Assembly: GCA_017416425.1 (NCBI GenBank)
Contig: JAFQCL010000015.1
Span: forward strand, 1 to 64,000
Origin: Clostridia bacterium
GTDB lineage: Bacteria; Bacillota; Clostridia; Christensenellales; CAG-138
Length of the DNA stretch: 64,000 nucleotides
Direction of reading: 5' to 3'
Shown here: positions 3,712 to 20,279 of the stretch, one piece after another
Layout of the letters: the number at the start of each line of letters is the position of its first letter
Position numbering within the stretch: position 1 is the first letter of the stretch
Made by a program: the position numbers and the translations under genes
The notes under the pieces: model-generated
What the model was told of the DNA's origin: nothing
The model's database searches: none
The model's input: only the letters and a program-made list of their open reading frames with translations

Positions 3712-3738
3712 GTAAATTGGAGTTAGAGGGTGATAATT

Positions 3739-4236
3739 ATGGCTAGTGAGCGAGAAATAGAACTAAGAAAAGGACGATGCTGTTTTACTGGGCATCGACC
3801 TGAAAAGTTAAGACAAAGCGAACATTCTCTACGCAGCATGTTAGAAGCAGAAATCATGCAGGCGATAAATGATGGCTTTACAGTATTTATTTCTGGTATG
3901 GCAAGAGGAATAGATATCTGGGCTGCTGAGATAGTATTAGAGCTTAAACGAGAGGGGCATCCATTGCGCTTAATCTGCGCCCTTCCGTATGATGGGTTCG
4001 GAGATAGATGGAGTATTCAATGGCGTGAAAAGTACCATCGAATACTGAACGAAGCAGATTTAGTCAGAGTTATTTGCAAAGGGTATCACAAAGGTTGTTT
4101 TCAGATCCGAAATGAATGGATGGTCGATCATTCTGCAAGAGTAATCGCATTATATACAGGAGAACCGGGCGGAACAAGAAACACCATAAACTATGCTGAA
4201 AAATGTGGTGTTGAGGTACGCAACGCAATCAATTAA
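3739..4236 (+). CDS. SLOG-family protein, YpsA/DUF1273-like
   Basis: A 165-aa Rossmann-like protein. The family signature FTGHRPEK is at the N-terminus, ISGMARGID (nucleotide-binding loop) in the middle, and GTRNTINYA near the end. SLOG proteins bind nucleotides or nucleotide-derived ligands, and several act in bacterial immunity; the role of this one is unknown. ATG 3739 has AGAGGG eight bases upstream. A GTG at 3730 with GGAG upstream would add three residues and cannot be excluded. Divergent from the XRE repressor. Confidence 0.8.
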   Translation: MASEREIELRKGRCCFTGHRPEKLRQSEHSLRSMLEAEIMQAINDGFTVFISGMARGIDIWAAEIVLELKREGHPLRLICALPYDGFGDRWSIQWREKYHRILNEADLVRVICKGYHKGCFQIRNEWMVDHSARVIALYTGEPGGTRNTINYAEKCGVEVRNAIN

Positions 4237-4438: not shown

Positions 4439-4473
4439 AAAGAACCAACAGATATTAACCGTTGGTTCTTTTT
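4439..4473. terminator. Second bidirectional terminator
   Basis: AAAGAACCAAC (4439-4449) pairs with GTTGGTTCTTT (4461-4471), with T-rich tails on both strands. It would stop read-through from the minus-strand defence unit as well as from the SLOG gene. Confidence 0.8.
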
Positions 4474-4541
4474 GCAGAGAACAGTTCTCTGTGACAGTTA
4501 CCCTAATGGTCTCCTATGTGTTGGCATAGTGTAGGGACCAT

Positions 4542-6977
4542 TTACAGTTGGTGGTAGGCATCAACAATTATCTTTACACATGCTTCAATATCGTCAGTAG
4601 GCTTTACAACTATCTTATAATTTTTAGTCCATGTATAAGTATCGGGCAGCTTTTCTCCTATAATGCTTTCAGTGTGGATCGGCGGCAACGTATACACGAC
4701 GAGTTGTTTTGCGTGAATGTGTGCCTCGTAAAGAACAGAGCCATTTATATGCCTAATGGCTATGTAGTTCTTTGTTGCTGTTTCATAAATATCTAAGGAT
4801 TTCTTACGCAGCGAATCAAGGATGGAATCATGGAGAGCTATTATTTCGTAGTTCCGTCCATCTAAATATTCCGAAACTCTAATAGCTCCTTTTTCACTTT
4901 GGGAAAAGTGAGCATCTCTTTTTGTGTAATCTTCAGGCTGTAATTCGGGTAGAGACTCCCGCTCATCCAGCATAAAGCGCAATCCAAGAATATCAATCTT
5001 TTGTTCTTCACTTTTGAAATGGAAGCACCATCTTTGTTCCATCCATGAAAGTAGCTTTAACCCACGATCCAAGACAGCTTGTGGCGTCCAATCATCCAAT
5101 TCTGCGACCTGCATTTCAGAATATGAGCCGTTGCTATATCCGCATCTGCTTTTATTCTTAGGATGCTTTTTTAGTGCAAACTCATCATTTTGCAGCGATG
5201 AATTGACGCTTTGAGAAAGAGCAAGCAAATTTCCCAATGAATTGGTAAGATAGTACCGTTCAGATACATCTGCATAGTTTCTGAATTGATTTCTCCAATA
5301 CCAATGAACGGGTTTTTGCGGGAAAATATGCTCGATTGAAACCTTATCTTTCTCGGATTTTGTAAAGTAAGACCAATCGTTCATCTTTTCGATGGCTTTA
5401 CCTTTCGCTAATTCGGCTTCATATTCAAAGAACACATACTTCAATTCGCTCCAACTATAAAAGCCTTCATAGTTCTTAAAATATCGGGCGATATTGTTTT
5501 CAAAGTTACCTGTAGCTTCAGAAATGTTGCTCTGAAATTTGCTTTCAAAATAGTCGGTAACTTCAGCAATGGTGGTTGTTCCCTTGAGTAAAGCTCGAGA
5601 ATACTTGTAAGCATCTTGGCTAAGATATGTAGACTGGTATCTCGCCATTCTGAAGCACAAGAAAATAAACCGTTCAATCGTCTTGAATAATGCAACTCGT
5701 TCTTCAGGGGAAACATCAGTTCTAATAAGAGCGGCAACTACCAAAGGACGGAAATAGCTTATCCCGACTCGGTTAAGTTTATTGATCCATGTCTTTTCTT
5801 CTCGAGTGAAATCACTATCTTCAGGGTTAAAGGAATAATACCAATAAGGAGCTACTTTTTGGAGGTTTTTAACATAGTCTGTAATCTCAATAGGGTTGAG
5901 AATTCCGTCATCCGCATCAATAACGGTTATCATGTCGGAAGGAATATACTCCTGATCCTCTGCAAGACTGTTTAGTTTGAGCTCGACAGTTTCTCCATAG
6001 ACTGCCTTTGGTGTAAACACCTTGTTCAGCAAATGGATAATATAATCGTCACCAGTAACACGTGAATACTTAAAATACAAATACCAATGATTTCTCAAAA
6101 AATCATCGTCATTAAGAGGGTTCTTTTTGTTACGTCCCAGCTCATAATATATTTCTTTCCATGCTTCGTTTATGTCGCGGCGCATTTGCTCGCGTTCACT
6201 TTGCCCAAGTCTGTCATCTGGGAAAATGGTAGTTAAATATATCAGCCGATTTTTAAGAATCTCGAGATTTGAGAGCCGTTTGCCGCGATTGTTCATTGTT
6301 TCAAAAGCGACAAACACATCAAAATCGCTGTCTATATCATGGATGTTGAATTGCAGTTTTGTTGTTAGCTTCATAAAGATCGCTTCAACTGCTTCAAACC
6401 CTTTTTTATCAAACAGCTCTTGCAGTTTTATGTCAAAAAAATCCTTCGCTTGTTGTAGGTTCAAAGTATAGAATGTTTCCTGCAATGCACCTGATGCATC
6501 TTCGCCTAAGATTTTATGCCGAAGATACTTAAACGAAGGATTATCTACCTCGTACCCAAATTTATACGCTTTCAGAATCCTTTCGGGTTTTTTATACTCG
6601 ACGATGTATTGCGCCTTTATATCTTCAATATCATCGCCATTTATACAATCATAGCCGTTGTTTTGCGCTAAGCCAATAATACAGTTCAGCATGATTATGA
6701 AGGTTGTGAGACGCTGCTGTCCGTCTACAACATGATAGGCTTCAAATCCTTTTGTTTCGATTATCCACTTGTCTTCCAGCCAATCTTTGTATACTTCCTT
6801 CGTAAGCTTTTTAAGCGAAAGCATACCTGTGTAATGGTATCTGTCCAAACTGAGATTATTCAGATCATCCCAAAAATCCACAAGTTGCGGTTCTGTCCAT
6901 GCATAACCACGCTGATAATCGGGAATCCGAAATATCTTTTTATTGAATAAATTTGCTAATGAAATCAGTTCGTTCAT
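4542..6977 (-). CDS. DUF262-DUF1524 nuclease with C-terminal DUF5655 domain
   Basis: An 811-aa protein related to GmrSD/SspE-type restriction nucleases. DUF262 is N-terminal, with the ParB-like signature IPDYQRGYAW (18-27) and DGQQR (85-89). The DUF1524 HNH nuclease lies around residues 535-620 (IEHIFPQKP). The last 110 residues resemble DUF5655. In known relatives DUF262 binds nucleotide and drives cutting of modified phage DNA by the HNH part. It is the last gene of the minus-strand unit, 29 bases after HIRAN. Start ATG has GGAG upstream. Target preference cannot be read from sequence. Confidence 0.85.
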   Translation of the reverse strand: MNELISLANLFNKKIFRIPDYQRGYAWTEPQLVDFWDDLNNLSLDRYHYTGMLSLKKLTKEVYKDWLEDKWIIETKGFEAYHVVDGQQRLTTFIIMLNCIIGLAQNNGYDCINGDDIEDIKAQYIVEYKKPERILKAYKFGYEVDNPSFKYLRHKILGEDASGALQETFYTLNLQQAKDFFDIKLQELFDKKGFEAVEAIFMKLTTKLQFNIHDIDSDFDVFVAFETMNNRGKRLSNLEILKNRLIYLTTIFPDDRLGQSEREQMRRDINEAWKEIYYELGRNKKNPLNDDDFLRNHWYLYFKYSRVTGDDYIIHLLNKVFTPKAVYGETVELKLNSLAEDQEYIPSDMITVIDADDGILNPIEITDYVKNLQKVAPYWYYSFNPEDSDFTREEKTWINKLNRVGISYFRPLVVAALIRTDVSPEERVALFKTIERFIFLCFRMARYQSTYLSQDAYKYSRALLKGTTTIAEVTDYFESKFQSNISEATGNFENNIARYFKNYEGFYSWSELKYVFFEYEAELAKGKAIEKMNDWSYFTKSEKDKVSIEHIFPQKPVHWYWRNQFRNYADVSERYYLTNSLGNLLALSQSVNSSLQNDEFALKKHPKNKSRCGYSNGSYSEMQVAELDDWTPQAVLDRGLKLLSWMEQRWCFHFKSEEQKIDILGLRFMLDERESLPELQPEDYTKRDAHFSQSEKGAIRVSEYLDGRNYEIIALHDSILDSLRKKSLDIYETATKNYIAIRHINGSVLYEAHIHAKQLVVYTLPPIHTESIIGEKLPDTYTWTKNYKIVVKPTDDIEACVKIIVDAYHQL

Positions 6978-7006
6978 AATGACTCCTTTAAGCTCCCTAA
7001 GATCCG

Positions 7007-7408
7007 CTACTCATGCAAAAATACTTTTATATTAATCTTTACCCATTTACCTTTTTTATCTTTCTTAGATATGCGACCAAATAGAAGCTTGCCTGCATCC
7101 ATCAAACGAGCAAAGATAATGTTATCCGCCTGTGGGACGTAGCCAATCTTAACGCCATGCTCTGTCTTGATGACAATGGCCTGCTTATCATAGGGGTTGT
7201 CAGGTTCTCGAAAGAAACTAAGTTTTTCATCGATCTTAAGCTGCGGCTCTAATTCTTCTATACCCTCAATATGCGTCGTCCCTGCAACATGAGTATCAAA
7301 CAGGAAAATATCTTTTTCGAATGGCTGAGGAATAGTAAGTCCTCCGTGTGAGCTATGGAGAAGTCCTATTAAACCACCTTGCCCTTCACTTTTAACAATA
7401 TCACTCAT
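7007..7408 (-). CDS. HIRAN-domain protein
   Basis: A 133-aa protein. The HIRAN domain covers about residues 35-131: hydrophobic start (DTHVAGTTH), central FFREPDNPYDKQAI and IGYVPQ. HIRAN domains bind free 3' ends or damaged DNA and occur in SWI2/SNF2 helicases. Here the domain stands alone with a 35-residue Gly-rich lead. It sits 27 bases after DUF5063 and 29 before the DUF262 nuclease. This suggests a DNA-end sensor feeding the nuclease, which is an inference from context only. Confidence 0.85.
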   Translation of the reverse strand: MSDIVKSEGQGGLIGLLHSSHGGLTIPQPFEKDIFLFDTHVAGTTHIEGIEELEPQLKIDEKLSFFREPDNPYDKQAIVIKTEHGVKIGYVPQADNIIFARLMDAGKLLFGRISKKDKKGKWVKINIKVFLHE

Positions 7409-7435
7409 GTCTTTTCCTCCGTTTTAGCTAAATTA

Positions 7436-7876
7436 TTACGATTTGGAAACGAGAGAATTTAATGCTCGAATAGCATCAACGGCATGATACTTCCAATGAG
7501 TTTCAAAACTAAATTTCCATCTCCAATTTGCTTCGGAACGGTATCCATTATCAAAAAGTTGAATCCCTTCTCGAACATCGTTGTAAATTGAATTTATGTC
7601 ATCTTTTAAGCTTCCGCATACAGGATCATCTTCCTCATTTGAATAAGGATCAAATACTTCCCAATACGCATCATAATATGGAACGTTGAAAGGCAGTACA
7701 GAATACTCATACGTGGAATCCATTTCTTCGCATCGCTCTGGATATACAAGATGAGTTGATAATTCGTACATCCTCATTAGTTGTATAATTACTGTTTCTG
7801 CATTATAGGGGGTAATGGCATCAATTGTCTCTGCCCACGAACAGAATTCCCGTGCAGCATCATAATATGAGCACAT
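7436..7876 (-). CDS. DUF5063-family protein
   Basis: A 146-aa, all-helical looking protein. Features matching DUF5063 are FDPYSNEEDDPVCGSLKDD in the middle, a spaced aromatic pattern WRWKFSFETHWKYH and AIRALN at the end. The family has no settled function and is usually found next to ribonuclease or housekeeping genes. In this locus it is an internal member of the minus-strand unit, 19 bases after the J-domain gene. Its function here is unknown. Confidence 0.65.
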   Translation of the reverse strand: MCSYYDAAREFCSWAETIDAITPYNAETVIIQLMRMYELSTHLVYPERCEEMDSTYEYSVLPFNVPYYDAYWEVFDPYSNEEDDPVCGSLKDDINSIYNDVREGIQLFDNGYRSEANWRWKFSFETHWKYHAVDAIRALNSLVSKS

Positions 7877-7895
7877 AAATCTCTCCTTACAAGCC

Positions 7896-8711
7896 CTAGT
7901 CTTTCTTCACCATATCATGTAGTTTTTTTGTGTAGAATTCAATTAAATCATCATACTGAGATTTAATGCCTTGCAGTTCTTTTTTCCTTTCAGATAACTT
8001 TTGCGGATCATCCAATATGTCTAAAACGGTAAATGGATACTGCGATTTAATTTTTGCAATGCTTTCCCGAATGGCTGCTATGAGTTTGACTAAATCTTCG
8101 TGCTTTTCCCGAAGCAAGCTCATTGTATCTAGCTCCACGTCATTTGGAAGTTTTTGATCAGCAACCATCTCATGGATGATTCTTAATGTACCAAGGTCTC
8201 CATTTTTATATGCCTGCACTGCATTTTCAAATAGCTTTATCTGTGCCTCGGAAACCTTAGGATTGAGATCCGGATGCAATGTTTTGACTACTTCGCGATA
8301 GATTTTTTTGAGTTCTTTGTTTTCTTCGTCAGTGAGTACTTCACACTGGCTTCTCTCGAGAGCTTCATTCATTCGCTCGATTTGTTCGTTGAGCTTTTGT
8401 TGATACTCGGCAAACTCTGCATCCAGAGTATCCTCGATAGCAGACATTACTACCGTTTCTTGCCGGTTCTTAAGTGCTTGGATAAGCTCGATTTTGCGTT
8501 TGAGCCGCAGTGCAGCACATTGTGCTTCATATGCTTTATATTCCAATCCACCAAGCGCAAGCATGTATCGAGTATCAATATTCTTGGAAACAACAAACTG
8601 GAGCTCATCTCTTTCTAGCAAAAGCATGGAGAGCTCGGTTTTCATTCTTTCAATCTCTTCTTTTAGTCTCTGAAAATCAGGGAATAGTATTATGTTGTTT
8701 GCAGTTTCCAT
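7896..8711 (-). CDS. J-domain protein with long coiled coils
   Basis: A 271-aa protein. A charged coiled coil lies at about residues 10-115, followed by a DnaJ-like J domain with the HPD motif (TLHPDLNP) and then a second coiled coil in the last 90 residues. The J domain should recruit Hsp70 (DnaK) or serve as an assembly platform. ATG 8711 is chosen because GAGG lies about seven bases upstream; a TTG at 8726 would add five residues and overlap the preceding gene. J-domain/coiled-coil proteins recur in phage-defence operons, but the role here is inferred. Confidence 0.75.
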   Translation of the reverse strand: METANNIILFPDFQRLKEEIERMKTELSMLLLERDELQFVVSKNIDTRYMLALGGLEYKAYEAQCAALRLKRKIELIQALKNRQETVVMSAIEDTLDAEFAEYQQKLNEQIERMNEALERSQCEVLTDEENKELKKIYREVVKTLHPDLNPKVSEAQIKLFENAVQAYKNGDLGTLRIIHEMVADQKLPNDVELDTMSLLREKHEDLVKLIAAIRESIAKIKSQYPFTVLDILDDPQKLSERKKELQGIKSQYDDLIEFYTKKLHDMVKKD

Positions 8712-8722
8712 TAGATACCTCA

Positions 8723-8926
8723 TCAATGCCAGGTTTCCAAATGTGCGATTAGCTGTAACAAGTGTTGTCGCGGAGTGGATTTATTGGGACTACTACGCAG
8801 GTATGGAAGATCTGTATCTTTCACACTTGTGATATAATCGACAGCCTCATCGTCATCCTTATACTTTTTCAGAAGATACTCTAATATCTCATCTTCTGTC
8901 ATGCTATCATAATTTGATTTCATCAT
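8723..8926 (-). CDS. 67-aa protein of unknown function
   Basis: A small ORF that begins inside the end of the ASCH gene (20-base overlap, different frame) and stops 11 bases before the J-domain start. The tight overlap argues for a real, translationally coupled gene. The N-terminal half is acidic (MTEDEILEYLL, KYKDDDEAVDYI) and the C-terminal half is basic and polar. No family was recognised. Two adjacent ATG codons (8926 and 8923) are possible starts. Confidence 0.55.
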   Translation of the reverse strand: MMKSNYDSMTEDEILEYLLKKYKDDDEAVDYITSVKDTDLPYLRSSPNKSTPRQHLLQLIAHLETWH

Positions 8927-9587
8927 CTTCGCCATAGGGACTTGCAACGCCCCAATCATCAAGAATTTTATGGGCTTTTTTATCTGTAATTTGTTCGAGT
9001 TCGCAATTTCCTTCACCATCGTAGAATGCTTTCTCATATTCTGAGGTGGGTTCAGTTAACTTCCATTCTGCTGTACCCTTACTCATGTATTCTAAAGAAG
9101 CTTGTCCTACACGCCAACGGATCAAATCACCAGATGTTTTTTCCAAGTAATAGCATCCAATTTTTCCGTATTTGTACGAGACAGGAGCAATATACTTCAT
9201 AAACACGTCGTCTGCTTCTTCAGGAGAAAGATTACCATCATCAATGACTTCAATAAGTTCATCATCAACATAGTAGAAATTCAATTTACCTTTTACGGGA
9301 AAAGGCTTAACTATGCGAACATTAGACAAATGCCATGCAAAACTACCAGATTCGGGCATTTCATCCATGCAGGCTGCTTCTAGATGTGTTTTTCTAAATT
9401 GTGTTACTTTATCAAGCGATACAATACATAATGCATGACCTGAAATCATGGCAGGAATTTTGGGTGCAGCACTGCTACAAATAAGCAGATCTCCACGATG
9501 TTCTGTATTCCAAGAACGAACTTCAATGGTTTTCTCTCCGGTCATAATCCAGTGAGCAAAAGGATTTTGAATAGATATAGCTTTCAT
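8907..9587 (-). CDS. ASCH-domain protein with C-terminal extension
   Basis: A 226-aa protein. The ASCH domain occupies about residues 1-100, with the typical start ISIQNPFAHWIMTGEKTIEVR. This fold binds RNA or modified nucleosides and includes nucleases and readers of methylated cytidine. A second part (about 125-226) has no recognised family. It follows the WYL regulator by 71 bases and overlaps the 67-aa gene. In a cluster with HIRAN and DUF262 it could read RNA or base modification, but that is inference. Confidence 0.8.
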   Translation of the reverse strand: MKAISIQNPFAHWIMTGEKTIEVRSWNTEHRGDLLICSSAAPKIPAMISGHALCIVSLDKVTQFRKTHLEAACMDEMPESGSFAWHLSNVRIVKPFPVKGKLNFYYVDDELIEVIDDGNLSPEEADDVFMKYIAPVSYKYGKIGCYYLEKTSGDLIRWRVGQASLEYMSKGTAEWKLTEPTSEYEKAFYDGEGNCELEQITDKKAHKILDDWGVASPYGEDDEIKL

Positions 9588-9657
9588 ATTGGTACCTGCT
9601 TTCGTCTTTTTTATTATGGGTGATATAGTGAAACTATCGACACCATATTGTAGTTAC

Positions 9658-10638
9658 TTATAAACTTTCAGCCGCGCTTTTTAATAGTTTTGTATACTCG
9701 CCTTTGATTTCTTCAGGACCTCGTATTCTAACTTTACCCCCAAATCCAAAAACCCAACTATAGAAAATATGGGTTGTTGCAACATGAACGATAGCTCTAA
9801 ATGAAACCATATCGTTTGCGTAGGTGGTTACTGCTTCTCCAAAGCGATCAATAATCGCATCCATAACGTCGTTATCACAAATCAGTTCAACTTGTTTATA
9901 GCCACCACCAAACATATGGAAAGTAGTATTGATGTATTGATCTATATCGAAGTCCTTTGGTGCAGCGTGGCAATCTTCATCAAGGATTTGTGGGCAACTC
10001 GCTATACGGTCAACGCGGAAACATACTATCTCCTTCTGATTTTCATTTCTCACGCCAACTATATAGTAGCGATCACCATTCCAAACAAGATGAAGAGGGG
10101 AGATAATATATTGCTGTCCATCGTGACGCAACTGCTTTTCTTTACGGACATTATACTTAAAGTACTGAAAAGTAATTTTTTTGTTTTTATTGATTGCTTC
10201 GTTGACAGCATCGATTATAAGCAATATTTTTTCATTGCCGCTTCTAATACGTCCCTCACATCGAATATTACGGCGAAGAGCAGTGGCACCGTGTATACCT
10301 GCTAAGGAACCAAGTTTATTGACCAAGTCATGGCTTTTGTTCGCAGGAATCACTTTTGCAGATTGAACCGCATCGATTAGTAGCTTTAGTTCCGCAATAT
10401 CAAATAGTCTGTTTACGAGATTATAACGATTTTGGGTGGATTTTATCTCTTGAATGTCCATCCCGAATCGCTTTAATAGTTCAATATCTCCCTTGATTGT
10501 TTGACGATGAGATGTAATACCATATTCGTTCTCAAGAATATGTAATAATTGCGTAGTCGTCAGATAATTCATCTCATCAGTCTGTTCATATAGTATTTTA
10601 GCAAGACACAGAGGTCTTATCTTAGCATCGTTATCCAT
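9658..10638 (-). CDS. WYL-domain transcriptional regulator
   Basis: A 326-aa regulator. The N-terminal winged helix (about 1-75, with HRQTIKGDIELL) is followed by a WYL/Sm-like ligand domain (about 140-225, LVWNGDRYYIVG) and a C-terminal extension. Such proteins (CapW/BrxR type) repress defence genes until they sense a nucleic-acid ligand. ATG 10638 is preferred because GAGGTG is five bases upstream; a longer start at 10665 lacks one. It lies 37 bases after hsdR and heads the seven-gene tail, so it may mark an independently controlled module. Confidence 0.85.
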   Translation of the reverse strand: MDNDAKIRPLCLAKILYEQTDEMNYLTTTQLLHILENEYGITSHRQTIKGDIELLKRFGMDIQEIKSTQNRYNLVNRLFDIAELKLLIDAVQSAKVIPANKSHDLVNKLGSLAGIHGATALRRNIRCEGRIRSGNEKILLIIDAVNEAINKNKKITFQYFKYNVRKEKQLRHDGQQYIISPLHLVWNGDRYYIVGVRNENQKEIVCFRVDRIASCPQILDEDCHAAPKDFDIDQYINTTFHMFGGGYKQVELICDNDVMDAIIDRFGEAVTTYANDMVSFRAIVHVATTHIFYSWVFGFGGKVRIRGPEEIKGEYTKLLKSAAESL

Positions 10639-10674: not shown

Positions 10675-13600
10675 TCAAGCAACAATAATGGTGGCATTAT
10701 CCTTTACTTTATTTATGGCAGCCATAATAGCTGTCTGTGTTTTTCTATCAAACAATTTGGTGAAACTCAACGGTTTATCAAATGGCGGCTTAGTTAGCAT
10801 AGTAACATTCTCCATATAACCGTTTTGTTCTATATGATTGATAATCTTATGCACAAAAGCAATCTGCTTTTGGTTCAGTGATTGATCGTTAATAAACTGA
10901 GAGAATGCAGACATCGCTGCATCGTGATCCAACTTTGCGATCTTTCGCACCAGCAATCCAAACGGCGTATCACCAAATTCACGTATATAGTCTTCCTTGC
11001 TACCAAGTTCACTTGTAAGCACTCGCTCCAATTCTTGATAATCTCCAGATGCCAAAGGAATATTGTGTGTCAGCTTATAAATGGCCAGCGTGTTACCATT
11101 CTCATTTACATAACGATTGACTTTGGCGCGATAATCTTCGAAGTCGTATGCAGCATCCAATTGAACACCTTCTTGTTGGTCAATTACCGGATCAGTCAGA
11201 TGAGTGATAATGGTTTTTTTGCCGGGTGTCTGTTCCACAATGAACTTAATTAGCTCACGCAATTCTTTTCGTACCTTTTCAAACTGGAGAATATCATTTG
11301 CTTCCCAGAACGTATCAGTGTTGACTTCTTTGATGACCGGCAACTTTGCCTTGATCTGTGGAATGCTGACTTTACGTTCTAGCAGTGTTCCCATATCACG
11401 TAGCTGCTTTTGAGCATGAATGAAAGACGGCATTTGCTCCATGGATGCAATCATAAGGCCGTACATAAAGTTGTCAAAACGCTTTGCATACTCATCGTTG
11501 TCATCCATTTGAACGATAGGGGCAATCTGCTGCAGGAGTTCGCCCTTATCGCCCTCACTAATGTAGTTGAATGCACCGGGCTTTTTGTATTTTTCAACAC
11601 TCTGCATGCGTAAACGTACTGCAATTAAATCTGTATTCAATGCTTGCACCTGTGTGAAACATTCGCCAACCAACTCAGAACGCCATGTTTGGAAGTCATC
11701 GCTAGCAAATGCACTTTCCTGCAACATAACTGCCAATCTGACTTTCTTACCGAAAATGTTTTCGGTAAGCGATTTGGTATCTCTGGATTCAAAGCCTTCC
11801 TTATGGGTGCGGAAGTATTCGAAGTTTCCACAGTAATCAAAAATAAGGAAACGTTTCTTATCGGTATATTCTCCTTCAATTTGGTCTGTGCAGGTCAGTC
11901 CCTTGCACAGACGCGTGCCACGTCCAATCATCTGCCAGAACTTCGCCTTGGAGCGCACCTTCTTAAAGAATACGAGATTGACACACTGCGGCACATCGAT
12001 GCCGGTGTCCATCATATCAACTGATACAGCGATGATCGGATCTTTATCGGGGATCTTAAAGTCATCAATAATAGTCTGTGCATATGTATCATCACAAATA
12101 ACGCGCTGTGCGAAAGTGCCGTGATACTTGGGGTACAACTTATTGAACCGTTCTAAAATGAATTCTGCGTGTCGCTTGTTCTGCGCAAATATGATGGTTT
12201 TACCCAATCGGTCACCACCAGCCACACGAATACCGCGCTCCATTAAATCTTGCAGCACCATATCCACGGTCGTTTCATTAAACACAAACTTGTTCAACTG
12301 CGCAGACGGAATGAATTCAGGCATAAGACCGTCTTCAATGAAGTCATCCTCAAAGCGTTCTTTATCTTCATCGGAGAGATCATCGTATGTGATGCCTTCT
12401 TCCAAGAACTTGGTTTTTACTTCGTAGTTATAATACGGGACGAGCACATGGTCTTGATATACTGCCGTCTCATAGTCGTATGCATAAGTAGGAATACCAT
12501 GCTCCATTTCGAAGAAATCATAGGTATTACGATCCACATCCGTTTTCGGTGTTGCAGTCAAACCTACCATGATTGCGTCGAAGTATTCGAATATAGCACG
12601 GTATTTTTTGAAAATGCTGCGGTGACTTTCGTCAATGATGATAAGATCGAAATGCGCCGGTGTAAACAAACGCTGACCATTCTTCGTCTTTGTATCATCA
12701 ATGGCGTTCAACATTGTCGGATATGTAGAGAAAATGATTCTGGCACTGCGATCGTCCTTATTGGAACAAAGGTTGCACAACGACATATCAGGCAAATAAT
12801 TCTTAAAGTCATCCTTTGCCTGTTTTACAAGCGCAGTACGGTCTGCCAAGAACAGAATATTAGTGACATGCTTACCGCGACTCAGCACATCAGTTAAACT
12901 GGATGCCGTTCTGGTTTTGCCGGTGCCCGTGGCCATAACAAGCAAATGCTTTCTGAACCCCATGCCGATCTGTTCACATACCGCGCGGATTGCTTCCTTC
13001 TGGTAGTATCTGTCAGTGATGTGGTCGTCAATCGGAATGGTCATAAGATCCATGCGCTCTGTTCTGCGGTTCATAAGTTTCTGCAAATCATCTTTGCTGA
13101 ATATTCCGCTGACTCTGCGCTGGGGGCTGCTCTTGTCATCCCAAAAATATGTCTCGAAGCCGTTGGTAGTGAACATCATAGGACGGCGACCGAATTTGCG
13201 CTCTAAACAGTCAGCATACAATACAGCTTGTTTGCGTCCTATGTTGGGGTCCTTACTGGAGCGCTTAGCTTCAACAACTGCTAAAGGTAAACCATCTTTC
13301 CCAAACAACACATAGTCTACATAGCCTGCTTGTCCTATCACGCCAGCCATACCATCAACCGGATATTCTTCCTGTACATCTGCGTCAGCACCGGTAAATT
13401 TCCAGCCCATCTGCTTCATGTCCACATCGATATAAATCTTACGGGTTTTGAACTCAGAAAGGTCTGCCGCAACAAAGGTACGCTCTTGTTGGTTCTGTTC
13501 CTTAGCTGCAGTAATCTGGGCAGACATCTGCTCAATCTGCTGACGCAATGCCTCAATTTCTGCATCTTTTTCACCGAGCAGACTTTCTTGTTCTTTGATT

Positions 13601-14049
13601 TTCTTTGTATCTACTATTACACGCTCTGTTGGAAGCTTCGCTTCTTCAAATTGACGTTCTTCATAATTGGTACCATAACAATAGTCAACCCACTGAATGA
13701 ACTCAAATAATCCCTGCAAGGAAGCCAGGGCATCGCTAGCTTGTACACTCCGTTCTGTATGAACAGCTAAATTACCCAGTTTAATAACAAAAGGTAACTT
13801 GCCCCATGTGTTATAGTCCACAGCAAAACGGAACGTTGGCTCATGTATTAGTGACTGCAAATTGTCTTTGTAAGGCATTTGCATGGTAGTATCTGCAGAA
13901 TAGACCCATTTCACTGCCAGCTCCAGTGCTTTTCTGCATCCGACTGCGCACATCGCAGGTGCAGACACATACACCTTTTCTGCTTCAATTGCTGCCGAAG
14001 CAAACAAAGCGTATTCTTTTTTCTCTTTTAGGAATTCGAAGTTTGACAT
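10675..14049 (-). CDS. hsdR: Type I restriction enzyme, R (motor/nuclease) subunit
   Basis: A 1124-aa HsdR. An N-terminal DUF4145-like helical part (1-150) is followed by a coiled coil and then the PD-(D/E)xK nuclease (about 245-270, VDYVLFG then VVEAKRS). The SF2 translocase has ATGTGKT at about 373 and a DESH box at about 470, plus a C-terminal subunit-interaction domain. ATG 14049 follows AGGAG by eight bases; a GTG at 14058 is possible. It overlaps hsdS2 by 22 bases. With HsdM and HsdS it would translocate and cut unmodified DNA. Confidence 0.95.
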   Translation of the reverse strand: MSNFEFLKEKKEYALFASAAIEAEKVYVSAPAMCAVGCRKALELAVKWVYSADTTMQMPYKDNLQSLIHEPTFRFAVDYNTWGKLPFVIKLGNLAVHTERSVQASDALASLQGLFEFIQWVDYCYGTNYEERQFEEAKLPTERVIVDTKKIKEQESLLGEKDAEIEALRQQIEQMSAQITAAKEQNQQERTFVAADLSEFKTRKIYIDVDMKQMGWKFTGADADVQEEYPVDGMAGVIGQAGYVDYVLFGKDGLPLAVVEAKRSSKDPNIGRKQAVLYADCLERKFGRRPMMFTTNGFETYFWDDKSSPQRRVSGIFSKDDLQKLMNRRTERMDLMTIPIDDHITDRYYQKEAIRAVCEQIGMGFRKHLLVMATGTGKTRTASSLTDVLSRGKHVTNILFLADRTALVKQAKDDFKNYLPDMSLCNLCSNKDDRSARIIFSTYPTMLNAIDDTKTKNGQRLFTPAHFDLIIIDESHRSIFKKYRAIFEYFDAIMVGLTATPKTDVDRNTYDFFEMEHGIPTYAYDYETAVYQDHVLVPYYNYEVKTKFLEEGITYDDLSDEDKERFEDDFIEDGLMPEFIPSAQLNKFVFNETTVDMVLQDLMERGIRVAGGDRLGKTIIFAQNKRHAEFILERFNKLYPKYHGTFAQRVICDDTYAQTIIDDFKIPDKDPIIAVSVDMMDTGIDVPQCVNLVFFKKVRSKAKFWQMIGRGTRLCKGLTCTDQIEGEYTDKKRFLIFDYCGNFEYFRTHKEGFESRDTKSLTENIFGKKVRLAVMLQESAFASDDFQTWRSELVGECFTQVQALNTDLIAVRLRMQSVEKYKKPGAFNYISEGDKGELLQQIAPIVQMDDNDEYAKRFDNFMYGLMIASMEQMPSFIHAQKQLRDMGTLLERKVSIPQIKAKLPVIKEVNTDTFWEANDILQFEKVRKELRELIKFIVEQTPGKKTIITHLTDPVIDQQEGVQLDAAYDFEDYRAKVNRYVNENGNTLAIYKLTHNIPLASGDYQELERVLTSELGSKEDYIREFGDTPFGLLVRKIAKLDHDAAMSAFSQFINDQSLNQKQIAFVHKIINHIEQNGYMENVTMLTKPPFDKPLSFTKLFDRKTQTAIMAAINKVKDNATIIVA

Positions 14050-15149
14050 ATCATCCACTCCTGTCTAAAGTTACTTGCTGCATGCTGGCAGCTACGATAG
14101 CTCATCGAGCTGTAATATTTTGATTTGTCGGTCTGTTCGACAAAGGCTGCAAACTGCTTCTGTTGCTCCATCGATGGTACTGGCAACCGTAGCTTTCGGA
14201 TTTCCGAAAGGTTTAGTGTCTTTTGCGCTATGCCTTTAACTCGAGCATCTATCTGTCTCTGTACATCTGCTGAAAGGATTGCGCCGTGCAAGTACTCGCT
14301 ATTTACCATGTCTGCGTTTGGTTTTAGATACGCAATATGCCTTTGAAAACAAAACGGCTTATTTGACTTTACCACTGCTGGGTGACCATATGAACCAACA
14401 GTAGATAAGAGAATATCTCCTATTGCTATAGGGGTACGCTTGATCAACTCTGCATAGGTTTCCTCCGAAATAAATTTTTCGGCATCGTAACTAATCTCGT
14501 TGGTAACGATATTTGAAACAAACAGGAACGGTATTCCTGTCGCAGCAAACTTAGGTGGCTGATGCGTTCCGTCCGTAATAATCTTGCAGATATCAACCAT
14601 CATCTTTTTATCTTTGTCAGGCGTATCACCAAACAGTTCGACAAATCGGGACTTGACGAGCTGATCGAGAAGGAGCAGTTCCTCCTTGCGTTTGTCTATC
14701 AACCTTACAACTTGACTGATTTCGTCAACAATTTGCTCTTGTTCAGTCTTATCACGGTATGGAATCACCATTTGTCGCATTGCGGCCTGCGTTAATTTTT
14801 GTCGTGTCGCACCATTTACTAACCCTTCTGTGTCGTAATACATAAGTGCGTAGCAAAGATAATCCACATTTACGATCGGCTTAGCCTTCAAAACATGTGC
14901 GTGGTTGTTTACCCAGCACTTTCCGGATACGCGATACGCTATCGGACGATCTTTAGATCCAAAATTGCCACCATCTTCTGCAAGAAGTACTAATTCATCG
15001 TCAAATATGTATTCTGCCACATAATCCTGCAAGCCATTTGCTCCATAATACGGGTACACGCCTGCTTTTCGGTCTTTCGCTGTAATCGGAACGCGACGCG
15101 AATCAAGGATTTCACACACTTCTTCCAGCTTTTTATATGCTATGCTCAT
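14028..15149 (-). CDS. hsdS: Type I specificity subunit (second copy, hsdS2)
   Basis: A 373-aa HsdS with two target-recognition domains (about 1-130 and 180-330). They are separated by the conserved helix with LDQLVKSRFVELFGD (about 160-175) and closed by a second helix (FAAFVEQTDKSK). Each TRD reads half of the split recognition site. The C-terminus runs on for 25 unusual residues that overlap hsdR. Its last conserved 39 bases (14118-14156) are identical to those of the neighbouring half cassette (15176-15214), evidence of recent exchange. ATG 15149 overlaps the cassette stop as ATGA. Confidence 0.9.
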   Translation of the reverse strand: MSIAYKKLEEVCEILDSRRVPITAKDRKAGVYPYYGANGLQDYVAEYIFDDELVLLAEDGGNFGSKDRPIAYRVSGKCWVNNHAHVLKAKPIVNVDYLCYALMYYDTEGLVNGATRQKLTQAAMRQMVIPYRDKTEQEQIVDEISQVVRLIDKRKEELLLLDQLVKSRFVELFGDTPDKDKKMMVDICKIITDGTHQPPKFAATGIPFLFVSNIVTNEISYDAEKFISEETYAELIKRTPIAIGDILLSTVGSYGHPAVVKSNKPFCFQRHIAYLKPNADMVNSEYLHGAILSADVQRQIDARVKGIAQKTLNLSEIRKLRLPVPSMEQQKQFAAFVEQTDKSKYYSSMSYRSCQHAASNFRQEWMICQTSNS

Positions 15150-15736
15150 GCTGCCGCCTCCATCTCACCGCAAAGTTTTGATTTGTCGGTCTGTTCGACA
15201 AAGGCTGCAAACTGGTTTTGTAGTGTGATAGGCACATCAAAAACTCGGCATTTTTTTAGTGCAAATATCTTTAGCTCCGCAAATGTTGTTCCAGATGCAA
15301 TACTGCTATAGTCGGTCATAATCCTATCCTTCAAAGTATAGAGCAGAAAAACGGGATTATAGCTGGCATCAATTGCGTGAACCCACAGGACACGACCATC
15401 TTTGAAGTAGAATGGTTTATCAGTATTAACCACCCAAATTCGTCCATCCGGACAAATAGAGGGCATCAACAAATCGCCAACCTGGGGTGCTCCTGTGGCT
15501 TCACAAAGCTCTACATAGTGTTGCTCTGTTATAAATAACTCAGGAATAATTTGTTTTCCTTCAGCCAAAGCACCAACCTCTGTTCCGCGATAAAAAGGAA
15601 TACCTCCTTCCTGTAACTCTTCAGCAAATACTCGCTTACTGGAACCAACCTCAGCAATGTCCTCGAGGCACTTTGTTTTCCAGCCTTTAGGATTGGTTAA
15701 GCAATCCCCAAACAGTTCGATAAATCGGGATTGGCA
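15146..15736 (-). pseudogene. Silent hsdS half cassette (C-terminal TRD, no start codon)
   Basis: The frame reads SRFIELFGDCL, then a single TRD, then QFAAFVEQTDKSK and a stop, exactly the C-terminal half of an HsdS. The frame is open from about 15766, but no ATG or GTG precedes the TRD; the first possible start is a TTG at 15568 inside it. It begins directly at the 3' end of the recombinase gene, within the direct repeat CCAAACAGTTCGATAAATCG (15708-15732). It is therefore a donor of recognition sequence rather than a working gene. Confidence 0.8.
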
Positions 15737-15737
15737 A

Positions 15738-16730
15738 TCAGCTAATAAATTTCCGATGGGAAATTTTCACGTTGTTCTGATTGACCATAGCGTACTGCAT
15801 GGTAGTGTCTATTTTGGCATGTCCGAGAAGCAGCTGAACCTGTTCAATGGGCATTCCCTTGTCAATAGCACGCGTTGCCAGTGTTCTTCGGAATTTATGC
15901 GGATGCACCTTGGTGATGCCCAGTCTCCGCCCGAGCTTCCTTAATCGTACTTCTACACCACTAATTTCAAGTCTGTTATAAGGGCTAAGTAGCGAAACGA
16001 ATAAGGCGGGGTTATCATCCGTTCTGCTCTCCAGATAATTCTTCAGATGTATCTTGGTTCGAGCATCGAAGTAAACCGGTCGTTCTTTGCTGCCTTTTCC
16101 AAACACTACACATTCCCTGTTTTCAAAATCAATATCATCTCTGTTCAGATGCACTAGCTCTCCGACGCGCATTCCTGTCGAAGCAAGCAGGTCAATCATA
16201 GCGAGATCCCGCAAGCATCCACATTGGTCACGCATGGTTTCTAACGCTTCATCCGTATAGGTTTCCTTCACAGTTTTGTTGGAGCGAATTTTGTGGATCC
16301 TGCGTACAGGACTTTTCAAAATATAGTTTTCATCTTCCAACCAAGTAAAAAAACTGGACATAATCCTACGGATATTATCAATATTACCTTTGCTGCATTG
16401 CGTCTGCTGTTGATAATCTGATAAGTATGTTCTCAGATTATCTGTCTGCATTTGCGTCACATGACAGTCCACCTCCACAAATAGCCTGCGGATTGATGTT
16501 TCATAGTATCGCAGTGTTTTTTCACTACAACCTTCAACTCGCTTGGCTGACAGAAACATATCTAACAATTCAGTATTTGTTTCTCTGTCAAGCTGCTGAA
16601 CCCCTTCGTTGGCAGTAATCTGGACACCCCAGAGAGCATGCTGCAATACATTTTGCAACTGTTCCATTTGAGCGTTGTCCAAGTAGGGGATCATCTGTCT
16701 TGTGATTTCGGAAATGAGTTGGTTTTTCAT
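15738..16730 (-). CDS. Tyrosine recombinase of the hsdS locus
   Basis: A 330-aa XerC/D-like integrase. A SAM-like core-binding domain (about 50-135) precedes the catalytic domain. The catalytic set is present: Arg in TGMRVGEL, Lys in FGKGSKERP, HKFRRT, LLGHAKID and the nucleophile Tyr in MQYA. Such recombinases are typical of phase-variable type I loci, where they exchange TRDs between hsdS copies. Here all hsdS copies lie in the same direction, so deletion or cassette capture is more likely than inversion. Its stop lies four bases before the half cassette homology starts. Confidence 0.85.
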   Translation of the reverse strand: MKNQLISEITRQMIPYLDNAQMEQLQNVLQHALWGVQITANEGVQQLDRETNTELLDMFLSAKRVEGCSEKTLRYYETSIRRLFVEVDCHVTQMQTDNLRTYLSDYQQQTQCSKGNIDNIRRIMSSFFTWLEDENYILKSPVRRIHKIRSNKTVKETYTDEALETMRDQCGCLRDLAMIDLLASTGMRVGELVHLNRDDIDFENRECVVFGKGSKERPVYFDARTKIHLKNYLESRTDDNPALFVSLLSPYNRLEISGVEVRLRKLGRRLGITKVHPHKFRRTLATRAIDKGMPIEQVQLLLGHAKIDTTMQYAMVNQNNVKISHRKFIS

Positions 16731-16781
16731 GTTAGTACACCTCTAAAAATATGATGTGTACCAACATCCTGCACCGGCTCA

Positions 16782-17924
16782 TTAGCCAAAATACTGTTGC
16801 ATGAGAGATTTCTTCAAAATCTCCAGTTCCTGCAGTCCTTGCTGCACTGCCAATTTTGATTTGTCGGTCTGTTTGACGAAGGCAATAAAGTCTTTCTGCT
16901 GCTCTTGATTTGGTACAACCACACTCAAATCAGAAAGAATTTTAAGATTTATGTTTTTCTGTGCGACCTGTGGTGCCTGTTCTTCCAATATTTTTTGGAA
17001 GAAGCCAAACCAATAGTGCATATAAATCGCACTTATCGAATCTCCGGGAATAAATCCAACTACGCTATCCGGGAAGCAAGCATCAAAAGTTAAAATTGAT
17101 GTTTGCGCAATATTCGCCGCAATGGTTATGCAAAGCGTTCCAGCCTTCCACATCTTGCTTTGCTTGAGGCCAAGCTCCGAATATGTGTTGCTATACCCTG
17201 TAATATATAGCCCTGCATTTGCCACCTCGCCAGTCTGAATTAGCGGATAGGGGCCGCCGAGCAGTTCGGGGGCATTTCGAGGACGATGTTGAGACCTCCC
17301 TCTATCCAGCGATCCCAATTCTGCCAATCGCTTCGTTGGAAGATTCTTCGTATTATAAACAGGATCACCAAACAGTTCGATAAATCGGGATTTCACGAGC
17401 TGATCTAAATATTCCAACTGCAACTGTCTGTCAGCGATAACTGTGTCCAACCGGTCTAACTTTGCTGCAACTTCCATTTGCTCTGAAATATCTGGTAAAT
17501 CAATTTCAATCTCCGATATTGTTGCTTTGTTAAGCGTAAGTCCCATTACCGCTTTATTTGTTCCGTCTGTCCAGTTCTTACCACAGCAAAGGTGATAAAA
17601 ATAGGTGGGATCAATCGCATAGATGCCTTTGTCAATAAACGCCATAATTGCCTCATTCGTATAAAGCTCTTCGGCAGTAATTGCGGTTTTTCCGATAGAC
17701 AGTTTGAAACTCATAATAACAGTTTCTTTAGGAACTACCTTTATGCCACTCTCTCGGATACCTTTATCAGTAATGCATTCCTTGGTGTCAGAGATATACT
17801 TGCCAGATTTACCGATATCCGCTATTGACACCCATTTTTTGTCACCATTCCAGTATGCAGCGTTATTTCTAGAAGGTGTCTTTCCCATTTGTAAATCAAA
17901 TGCTTGTGACAGTTTGACTTTCAC
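16782..17924 (-). CDS. hsdS: Type I specificity subunit (first copy, hsdS1)
   Basis: A 380-aa HsdS with two TRDs, the central LDQLVKSRFIELFGD helix and the closing FVKQTDKSK helix. GTG 17924 is chosen because AAGGAGGTG sits seven bases before it; an in-frame ATG at 17948 lacks an SD. The TRDs differ from those of hsdS2 and the cassette. The central repeat (17368-17392) matches the cassette repeat base for base. The gene follows the HEPN gene closely and is cotranscribed with hsdM, so it is probably the specificity subunit in use. Confidence 0.9.
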   Translation of the reverse strand: MKVKLSQAFDLQMGKTPSRNNAAYWNGDKKWVSIADIGKSGKYISDTKECITDKGIRESGIKVVPKETVIMSFKLSIGKTAITAEELYTNEAIMAFIDKGIYAIDPTYFYHLCCGKNWTDGTNKAVMGLTLNKATISEIEIDLPDISEQMEVAAKLDRLDTVIADRQLQLEYLDQLVKSRFIELFGDPVYNTKNLPTKRLAELGSLDRGRSQHRPRNAPELLGGPYPLIQTGEVANAGLYITGYSNTYSELGLKQSKMWKAGTLCITIAANIAQTSILTFDACFPDSVVGFIPGDSISAIYMHYWFGFFQKILEEQAPQVAQKNINLKILSDLSVVVPNQEQQKDFIAFVKQTDKSKLAVQQGLQELEILKKSLMQQYFG

Positions 17925-17937
17925 TTCGGACACCTCC

Positions 17938-18444
17938 TTACTCTTCATTTCGTGTGAGATAGTCAGACCATTTCATCTGATAAAAAGTTTCACAACATAC
18001 TTCTCGGAGTATTTCTCTGAAAATACGCAGGAAATTTACGTTGATTCTTCCTCTATGTTTTTCATAAATATATCGCCAATACTCAAAGGCATCAGAGATA
18101 TTATCCAACAACTCATTAAACATGTTTTCATTTTGGGAGTTGAAGATTTCCTTCATTTTTCTTTCCACGCACACTGCGTTGGCATTGTCTTTTTCTCTGT
18201 ATTTGCCCCACAGGTTTTTAAGTTTATGTCCCTTTATGTCGCTTATTTCCATCCCGTGATAAACCAAGAGTGCTTTAATGAATACTTCACAGGCAAAAGA
18301 CGAGTTTACAATATCAGCGACCATATGATTCATAACGCCAACTTGTATATTTTTAGGTTCTATTTCGCAGAAAGTGGCACAATCTACAAATGAACAGGCG
18401 TGCTTAAACATCCGTCGGGCATCAAACAAGCTATTTCCAGTCAC
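17938..18444 (-). CDS. HEPN-like protein inside the hsd locus
   Basis: A 168-aa helical protein. The segment SFACEVFIKALL followed by GHKLKNLW matches the first helices of HEPN proteins. R124-x5-H130 (RYIYEKH) fits the RX4-6H ribonuclease motif. The start is GTG, overlapping the hsdM stop as GTGA, so translation is coupled to hsdM. Known parallels such as PrrC place an anticodon nuclease within a type I locus. A role as an RNA-cutting guard of the restriction enzyme is inferred. Confidence 0.65.
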   Translation of the reverse strand: MTGNSLFDARRMFKHACSFVDCATFCEIEPKNIQVGVMNHMVADIVNSSFACEVFIKALLVYHGMEISDIKGHKLKNLWGKYREKDNANAVCVERKMKEIFNSQNENMFNELLDNISDAFEYWRYIYEKHRGRINVNFLRIFREILREVCCETFYQMKWSDYLTRNEE

Positions 18445-19973
18445 AGCATATTCCTCAATTCTTTCAACTCTGCCGCAATCGTGTCTTCCAATGCATCAAG
18501 TTTATCCATAATTTCTGCGGTAGATGGATATTCGACAGCTACGTACTCTGTCTTTTTGTACTTGTTGATAGAAAGGTCATAGCCATTATCAACGATTTCC
18601 TGTTTGGGCACCAAGAAACTCTGTTCAGTACGCTCCCGATCAGCTTCTTGCTCCAGATGGTGAAAGCGCTGAATGATATCAGGTATATCATTGTCAGAGA
18701 TTTCGGAACGCTTATCGTCAAGACTGAAACCGTCAGCCTTCATATCATAGAACCATACCTTGTCGGTACCGCCTGCACCGGTTTTTGTGAATACCAGCAC
18801 GGCAGTGGAAACTCCAGCGTAAGGCTTAAAAACACCTGAAGGCATGGAAATTACGGCTCGAAGCTGATGGTTATCTACCAATTCTTTGCGAATAGCTTTG
18901 TGCGCCGACGACGAGCCGAACAGCACGCCATCAGGAACGATACAAGCACACTGACCGCCCTTTTTCAACATTCGTAGGAACAATGCGAGAAACAGAAGCT
19001 CTGTCTTCTTGGTATTTGTAATCGCCTTCAGATTATCGTGAATGCTTTCTGCATCAATCGTTCCCTTGAAAGGAGGATTAGCCAAGCACATAGTAAACTG
19101 TTCTATGATTTGATTTTGTTTTGAAACGCTATCTTTATAATCAATCTCAGGGTTGCTAATTGAATGCAGCATAAGGTTCATTGCAGAAATGCGAAGCATT
19201 GTAAAGTCTGTATCATAACCTGAAAATGCAGGACCGGCAAAATGCTCCCACTGCTCGGATGTCATTTCATCCTCGTAATTGCGCCGAATATATTCGGATG
19301 CAGAAACCAAAAAACCTGCTGTACCACATGCGGGATCACAGATGGTATCGTCAGGGGTCGGCTGCAGTAATTCGACCATCATTTCACGGATGTGCTTGGG
19401 TGTACGGAATTGTCCGTTACGACCAGCGGTTGCCAGTTTCCCAAGCATATACTCGTATAAATCACCCTGCATATCCAGCTCTGCAATATCATGCTCATAG
19501 AGATCATCCAATCCTGTGATGATCTTCTGGAGAAGCTGCGGAGTAGGAATAAGAAACATAGCATTACTCATGTACCGAGCAAATGCGGTTGTGCTTTCGT
19601 CAGGCTTGCCGGGTTCATCTGCTATTTCTATCAGTTCACCATTTTCGCTGAAATCAGGCAGTCTACCGTATTTCATGTTTTTAATTGCAGGGAATACCCG
19701 CTGGGACATTACATCAAAAATTCGACGAGGATCGTCATTTTTGAACTTGCTCCACCGCATTGACTGACCTGCTGCTGAATGCGGAAAAATCTTCGGCATC
19801 TTTTCGCCAGTCATATTCTCGAATTCCTCATTCTCTAATTCTTTTTCATCGAGAGAGCGGATGAACATGAGATATGTAAGCTGTTCAATAACGGTCAGTG
19901 GGTTAGCAATACCGCCTGCAAATATATCCAACCAAATTTTATCGACTTTATTTTTGATTGTGCCTGTAATCAT
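18441..19973 (-). CDS. hsdM: Type I methyltransferase, M subunit
   Basis: A 510-aa N6-adenine methyltransferase. The N-terminal helical domain is followed by the SAM motif DPACGTAGF (about 212-220) and the catalytic NPPF (about 296-299). The C-terminal helices contact HsdS. ATG 19973 has GGAGG eight bases upstream. It is the second gene of the unit, 38 bases after the XRE regulator. Confidence 0.95.
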   Translation of the reverse strand: MITGTIKNKVDKIWLDIFAGGIANPLTVIEQLTYLMFIRSLDEKELENEEFENMTGEKMPKIFPHSAAGQSMRWSKFKNDDPRRIFDVMSQRVFPAIKNMKYGRLPDFSENGELIEIADEPGKPDESTTAFARYMSNAMFLIPTPQLLQKIITGLDDLYEHDIAELDMQGDLYEYMLGKLATAGRNGQFRTPKHIREMMVELLQPTPDDTICDPACGTAGFLVSASEYIRRNYEDEMTSEQWEHFAGPAFSGYDTDFTMLRISAMNLMLHSISNPEIDYKDSVSKQNQIIEQFTMCLANPPFKGTIDAESIHDNLKAITNTKKTELLFLALFLRMLKKGGQCACIVPDGVLFGSSSAHKAIRKELVDNHQLRAVISMPSGVFKPYAGVSTAVLVFTKTGAGGTDKVWFYDMKADGFSLDDKRSEISDNDIPDIIQRFHHLEQEADRERTEQSFLVPKQEIVDNGYDLSINKYKKTEYVAVEYPSTAEIMDKLDALEDTIAAELKELRNML

Positions 19974-20011: not shown

Positions 20012-20221
20012 TTAATCTATTTCAATAACTTCCATTACATCACCAATATCGCAATGAAAGATTCTGCAAAAGCGCAACATTACTTCCATTGATACTGGAC
20101 GTGATTGGTTTAGCTTTGTCATCATATATGGAGAAAGGCCTGCAGCTTTTGCAAGATCCTTTCTTGTCATCTTATTTGACTGCATCAAAGACCACAACTT
20201 ATCGTACCTTACAGACATCAT
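20012..20221 (-). CDS. XRE-family regulator of the hsd unit
   Basis: A 69-aa Cro/C1-type HTH (RKDLAKAAGLSPYMMTKLNQ) of the YozG type. Two adjacent ATG codons (20221 and 20218) follow GGAG. It is the first gene after the unit's promoter and lies 38 bases before hsdM, so it probably controls expression of the restriction system, like the C proteins of other RM loci. Confidence 0.8.
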   Translation of the reverse strand: MMSVRYDKLWSLMQSNKMTRKDLAKAAGLSPYMMTKLNQSRPVSMEVMLRFCRIFHCDIGDVMEVIEID

Positions 20222-20279
20222 AACTCTCCGTATCACAATAAATCTTGACAATACCTAAATGCTTATAACTCTACACTTT

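Follow-up and report, generated by a model that had tools for sequence, protein, structure and literature searches.

GmrSD nucleases are known companions of type I restriction-modification (RM) genes: in RloF both GmrSD domains are joined in one protein encoded within a type I RM operon, and such operons are the commonest defence context of GmrSD (PMC4619093). The co-localisation of WYL regulators with type I and type IV systems in defence islands is likewise established (PMC9122601), and HIRAN domains are known from toxin-antitoxin-like gene pairs (PMC8262856). Here we describe a window of 64,000 nucleotides (nt), i.e. the whole stretch of DNA that was analysed (positions 1 to 64,000 of contig JAFQCL010000015.1, Clostridia bacterium assembly GCA_017416425.1), which carries a restriction island on its minus strand. 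Within this island lies an evolutionarily conserved two-gene unit that encodes a J-domain coiled-coil protein and a HIRAN protein, the J-HIRAN pair. While type I RM with linked GmrSD, WYL regulators and paired HIRAN domains were known before, this pair is apparently undescribed and apparently the new element of the island. A literature search for J domains with HIRAN or with defence islands gave nothing relevant; subscription papers lay outside the search and novelty is unproven.

Like RloF, the GmrSD protein of the window combines both domains in one polypeptide and is encoded within a type I RM operon, but its gene is located at the far end, past WYL and the accessory genes, rather than between hsdS and hsdR, and it has an additional C-terminal region with weak similarity to DUF5655. 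In combining a WYL regulator with type I and type IV restriction genes the island resembles those of BrxR/CapW (PMC9122601, PMC9122588), whereas the WYL-WCX gene of the window sits in the middle of the operon and a small helix-turn-helix (HTH) gene at its head. HipN/HipL (PMC8262856) share with this locus a bacterial HIRAN domain from a gene pair; the HIRAN partner in the window, however, is a J-domain protein, and there is no HipS-like domain and no kinase. Type IV restriction, coiled coils and an Hsp70 theme also come together in CoCoNuT and further McrBC systems that include Hsp70-like parts (PMC11090510), but there the Hsp70-like domain is fused to McrB/McrC, while the window holds a separate gene for a putative J co-chaperone together with HIRAN. 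What makes the pair of interest is that a conserved unit of a putative co-chaperone and a putative DNA-end binder, shared by many bacteria, recurs beside unrelated restriction enzymes, although restriction is the best-studied bacterial defence.

The J-HIRAN pair and its neighbours

The J-domain protein is encoded at 7896..8726 and the HIRAN protein (133 aa) at 7007..7408, both on the minus strand. Profile searches located HIRAN directly beside J in 31 of 32 other loci, mostly overlapping or within ~40 nt. No gene separates J from HIRAN in the other J-HIRAN loci; the window is the sole interrupted case, its two genes being co-directional but non-adjacent owing to the DUF5063 gene between them. 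Six true relatives of J were detected in 399 genomes of the phylum, each with a neighbouring HIRAN gene (6/6), and the reciprocal HIRAN search of the same genomes delivered strong matches (>180 bits) in the identical seven genomes, the window's included. One additional HIRAN match, in G087 (123 bits), is truncated at its N-terminus, and no J gene was seen beside it. No J relatives were found in plasmids. We are highly confident that J and HIRAN form a functional unit. In one family of loci (L097-L100) some members carry HIRAN upstream of J, with adjacency retained.

The J protein has its HPD motif at residues 151-153 and matches PF00226 with an E-value of 3e-5, just below the cut-off. The motif is kept in 27 of 28 aligned sequences. 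In the AlphaFold model (pLDDT 91) the protein starts with an N-terminal helix of 72 residues and carries helices at the C-terminus, and HPD is flanked by helices 133-150 and 160-174, as expected of J-domain helices II and III. The family profile retrieves DnaJ structures in PDB at 1.5e-6; a fold search with the whole protein returned generic helical bundles and coiled coils only and no global structural relative, and PADLOC holds no model for the family.

The HIRAN assignment combines a Pfam match (8e-19, 67.7 bits) with the fold of the HLTF HIRAN domain: Foldseek matches of the model include Lactobacillus lp_0118 and DNA-bound human HLTF HIRAN (3k2y, E 1e-8; HLTF, 3e-6). In the motif PDNPYD (residues 69-74), N71 and D74, which correspond to positions of the HLTF DNA-binding loop, are invariant in 20/20 aligned rows. 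N71 aligns with HLTF N91, one of the two asparagines that were exchanged in a functional study (PMC4666394). HLTF HIRAN binds DNA ends (PMC8262856, PMC4666394), and the window protein probably does so too; the J protein probably recruits DnaK to HIRAN-bound ends.

The J sequence of the window belongs to a clade of 10 sequences (support 99/98), six of which lie beside restriction genes of unlike types, namely type I with GmrSD (twice), McrBC (twice), Mrr with type I, and McrB-like/LlaJI. In the window the pair is surrounded by type I RM and GmrSD genes; L095 reads hsdM-like, HsdR, DUF262, J, HIRAN; L038 reads McrB, McrC, J, HIRAN, and L101 part of McrC, J, HIRAN. In L077 the order is HTH, J, HIRAN, M78 peptidase, Mrr, HsdR, HsdM and HsdS, whereas in L079 a McrB-like AAA protein and a LlaJI endonuclease are found upstream, preceded by a Dcm-like protein (read by eye). 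HsdR, HsdS and HsdM also accompany the pair in L098 and L100, whose J proteins are more distant than the window clade. A second clade of 12 J sequences consists mostly of Sel1-J-HIRAN loci, often with WYL nearby (L042, L091, L105, L110-L112). Positions 8359-19500 of L110 encode Sel1-J-HIRAN-Sel1-WYL-DUF262, a 1065-aa protein with no Pfam match and a DEAD helicase, possibly a larger undescribed defence operon.

Enrichment was evaluated from the genome-wide positions of N6_Mtase, GmrSD_N, McrBC and WYL genes in 30 J-bearing genomes, with the window and the IMG/VR loci excluded. RM genes lie at most 10 kb from J in 6 of 29 genomes versus 0.64 expected (P 2e-5, kinship ignored), and WYL genes in 8 of 29 versus 0.37 expected (P 1e-9, kinship ignored). 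At the same distance, DUF262 alone occurs in 2 genomes (0.12 expected) and McrC alone in 2 (0.08 expected). As families, WYL and DUF262 thus recur near J-HIRAN above chance.

Proposed role and alternative explanations

The best explanation, which we hold with moderate confidence, is a type I RM and RloF-like GmrSD island of known kind that carries J-HIRAN as an accessory pair aiding restriction; for the J clade of the window, an accessory role in restriction has an even chance of being correct. In such an island the type I enzyme would cut unmodified DNA and GmrSD modified phage DNA, with HTH and WYL setting expression. The HIRAN protein would bind exposed 3' or single-stranded DNA ends arising from restriction or phage replication, and the J protein with its long coiled coil would bring host DnaK/Hsp70 to the bound site. 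There the chaperone may remodel or clear DNA-bound complexes, formed either by stalled restriction enzymes or by the replication proteins of a phage, and restriction might become more effective or less self-damaging. This specific mechanism, end-binding by HIRAN and delivery of DnaK by J, is put forward tentatively. Restriction systems of differing enzymology accompany the J-HIRAN unit in some loci, and in others it occurs without any. It is conceivable, with similar reserve, that it represents a mobile chaperone-coupled DNA-end sensor, which plugs into restriction of the type I, GmrSD, McrBC, Mrr and LlaJI types and links Hsp70 remodelling to them. If the pair works in the way proposed, it would offer a direct genetic handle on what Hsp70 machines do, under attack by phage, to restriction complexes or to broken DNA. 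The part of the block discussed below that merits attention is J and HIRAN plus a restriction partner, not all seven genes.

Several observations weigh against an accessory pair of this kind. The J protein of the window misses the Pfam DnaJ gathering score (24.4 versus 27.8 bits) and has no evident conventional helix I. RM genes are absent from the neighbourhood of many J-HIRAN pairs, and the clade of 12 associated with Sel1 is mostly RM-free; restriction is therefore not the sole function of the pair. The set of 399 genomes is, moreover, a convenience sample that contains some relatives.

The common occurrence of solitary and Sel1-linked copies, together with the service of HLTF HIRAN in fork remodelling (PMC4666394), would suit a pair that serves stress response or DNA repair instead of defence and that shares islands with defence genes only through their common carriage on mobile elements. 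We consider this rather unlikely: in the window clade the pair stands directly adjacent and co-directional to varied restriction genes (McrB-McrC-J-HIRAN, DUF262-J-HIRAN), and RM genes are enriched near J (P 2e-5). A lesser chance is given to J as an Hsp70 decoy or activator that blocks DnaK/DnaJ-dependent phage replication complexes, with HIRAN targeting forks and the restriction genes as mere neighbours. Co-chaperones matter in phage sensing, as PMC12169576 reports for DnaJ with bNACHT25, and HIRAN recognises DNA ends (PMC8262856), but this reading does not account for the recurrent position of the pair next to restriction enzymes. The HIRAN gene as a HipN-type antitoxin with its neighbour as the toxin is least probable of all. 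HIRAN domains are present in putative HipA-family antitoxins (PMC8262856), and the PADLOC model PDC-M03B matches the HIRAN half, at profile positions from ~118 on only; the window protein, however, has 133 aa and is HIRAN only, and its partner is a J protein. Identity with HipN was rejected because neither an N-terminal HipS-like domain nor an adjacent HipA-family kinase is found (Pfam, PADLOC, window).

The first-pass annotation had treated the genes for WYL, ASCH, a 67-aa protein, J, DUF5063, HIRAN and GmrSD as one candidate undescribed defence system whose members work jointly, a reading that is now very improbable. All seven open reading frames (4542-10638, minus strand) are intact, and the close co-directional packing with overlaps that was described is real, with spacings from WYL to GmrSD of 70, -20, -4, 19, 27 and 29 nt. 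Yet the set was seen at no second locus, the close relatives of DUF262 are solitary, and ASCH, the 67-aa protein and DUF5063 are unlinked to J/HIRAN in every other genome seen (where the 67-aa protein was not given a search of its own). The WYL start codon (ATG at 10638) lies 36 nt past the hsdR stop, which leaves the block without a natural left boundary; because of this proximity and because the gene run continues to 20251, the seven-gene boundary is arbitrary. Lack of joint conservation, which the annotation had named as decisive against its module, applies to ASCH, the 67-aa protein, DUF5063 and close DUF262 relatives and does not apply to J and HIRAN. A defence role as such gains support from the co-direction with the type I RM operon and from the terminal GmrSD nuclease.

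Organisation of the restriction island

The co-directional gene run spans 15.7 kb and extends upstream of WYL to the small HTH gene ending at 20251. From there the order is HTH, hsdM, HEPN-like, hsdS, Xer, hsdS fragment, hsdS and hsdR, followed by the seven-gene block. The first annotation placed this block on a mobile element and beside a type I RM locus, which understates the relation: the block belongs to that RM operon itself and forms the downstream half of a restriction island composed of HTH, type I RM, WYL, accessory genes and GmrSD. No convincing minus-strand terminator was found in the window sequence between 4542 and 20251. An inverted repeat flanked on either side by T-runs (4445-4475, read from the sequence) is located just past the DUF262 stop and is the likely transcript end; the whole run from 20251 to 4542 is likely a single transcript.

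All three type I genes are present together and intact (Pfam, PADLOC), on the minus strand like the rest of the run. The methyltransferase gene hsdM (18441..19973; PF02384 1.7e-64, HsdM_N 1e-12) is followed by a gene for a small protein of 168 aa (17938..18444), which overlaps hsdM and hsdS and is HEPN-like by a weak match (PF05168, E=0.05), its identity being uncertain. The specificity subunit is encoded by hsdS (16782..17948; PF01420 2e-29) and by a second hsdS (14028..15149; PF01420 3e-32), between which lie a tyrosine recombinase of the Xer type (15738..16730; PF00589 5e-34) and an hsdS fragment (15146..15568) that has no Pfam match but carries hsdS direct repeats. The restriction subunit hsdR (10675..14058) is of the EcoAI/EcoEI type (ResIII 5e-40, EcoEI_R_C 1e-21, HSDR_N 3e-9; PADLOC REase_I 2e-156). 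Repeats of 42-61 nt occur in the hsdS region (14028-17948) at 14103/15161/16839 and at 14625/15704/17364. They are direct and not inverted, which speaks against phase inversion and suggests exchange or deletion instead. Two hsdS genes, a fragment and a tyrosine recombinase make it probable that type I specificity is shuffled by exchange.

The small Cro/C1-type HTH protein (20012..20251, minus strand; PF13443 5e-16) is encoded by the first gene of the run. The WYL-WCX regulator (9658..10638, minus strand) contains WYL (PF13280 2e-11) and WCX (5e-6) as its only Pfam domains. On the Subdoligranulum plasmid L044 (11719-22319), homologs of both (HTH 62% and WYL 62% identical) are located side by side with HTH first, and behind them follows an island of GHKL-ATPase, possible Z1-type nuclease, Dcm and Vsr (names read by eye). 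From this arrangement HTH and WYL appear to be a control pair that can be reused with restriction cargo of changing kind.

The RloF-like GmrSD nuclease (4542..6977, minus strand) unites DUF262 and DUF1524 in one protein above the curated cut-offs (PF03235, GmrSD_N, 107.5 bits, 1e-30; PF07510, GmrSD_C, 58.5 bits, 9e-16) and has the motif DGQQR and the HNH-type motif EHIFP. These two domains of the original assignment are confirmed, whereas DUF5655 at the C-terminus is a sub-threshold hint (E=0.007). Close DUF262 relatives, 48-50% identical and solitary, originate from a Clostridia metagenome-assembled genome and from S. suis prophages. In the S. suis prophage L003 (5406-10814) a lone relative with 48% identity lies right after annotated integrase and site-specific recombinase genes.

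The remaining members, ASCH, the 67-aa protein and DUF5063, are, by the genomes compared, not conserved partners of J/HIRAN. The ASCH-domain protein (226 aa; 8907..9587, minus strand; PF04266 4e-10) has three relatives among 398 genomes, which match the N-terminus only; no genome that gave a strong J match carries one, and plasmids contain none. The gene of the 67-aa protein (8723..8926, minus strand; DUF6887 5e-4, below the cut-off) shares 20 nt with ASCH and 4 nt with J. DUF5063 (7436..7876, minus strand; PF16702 1e-20) has no match in 291 genomes of the class apart from that in the window. A viral-contig scan, which reaches close relatives only, gave none for ASCH, DUF5063, WYL or DUF262. 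Plasmids contain five DUF5063 relatives at 31-40% identity, and the three regions read (3/3) hold no other family of the block.

Adjoining the island at 3730-4236 of the window is a SLOG (YpsA) gene. A distant relative of it is also located beside the HTH-WYL pair on plasmid L044, which likewise carries a distant relative of the NlpC/P60 gene of the window.

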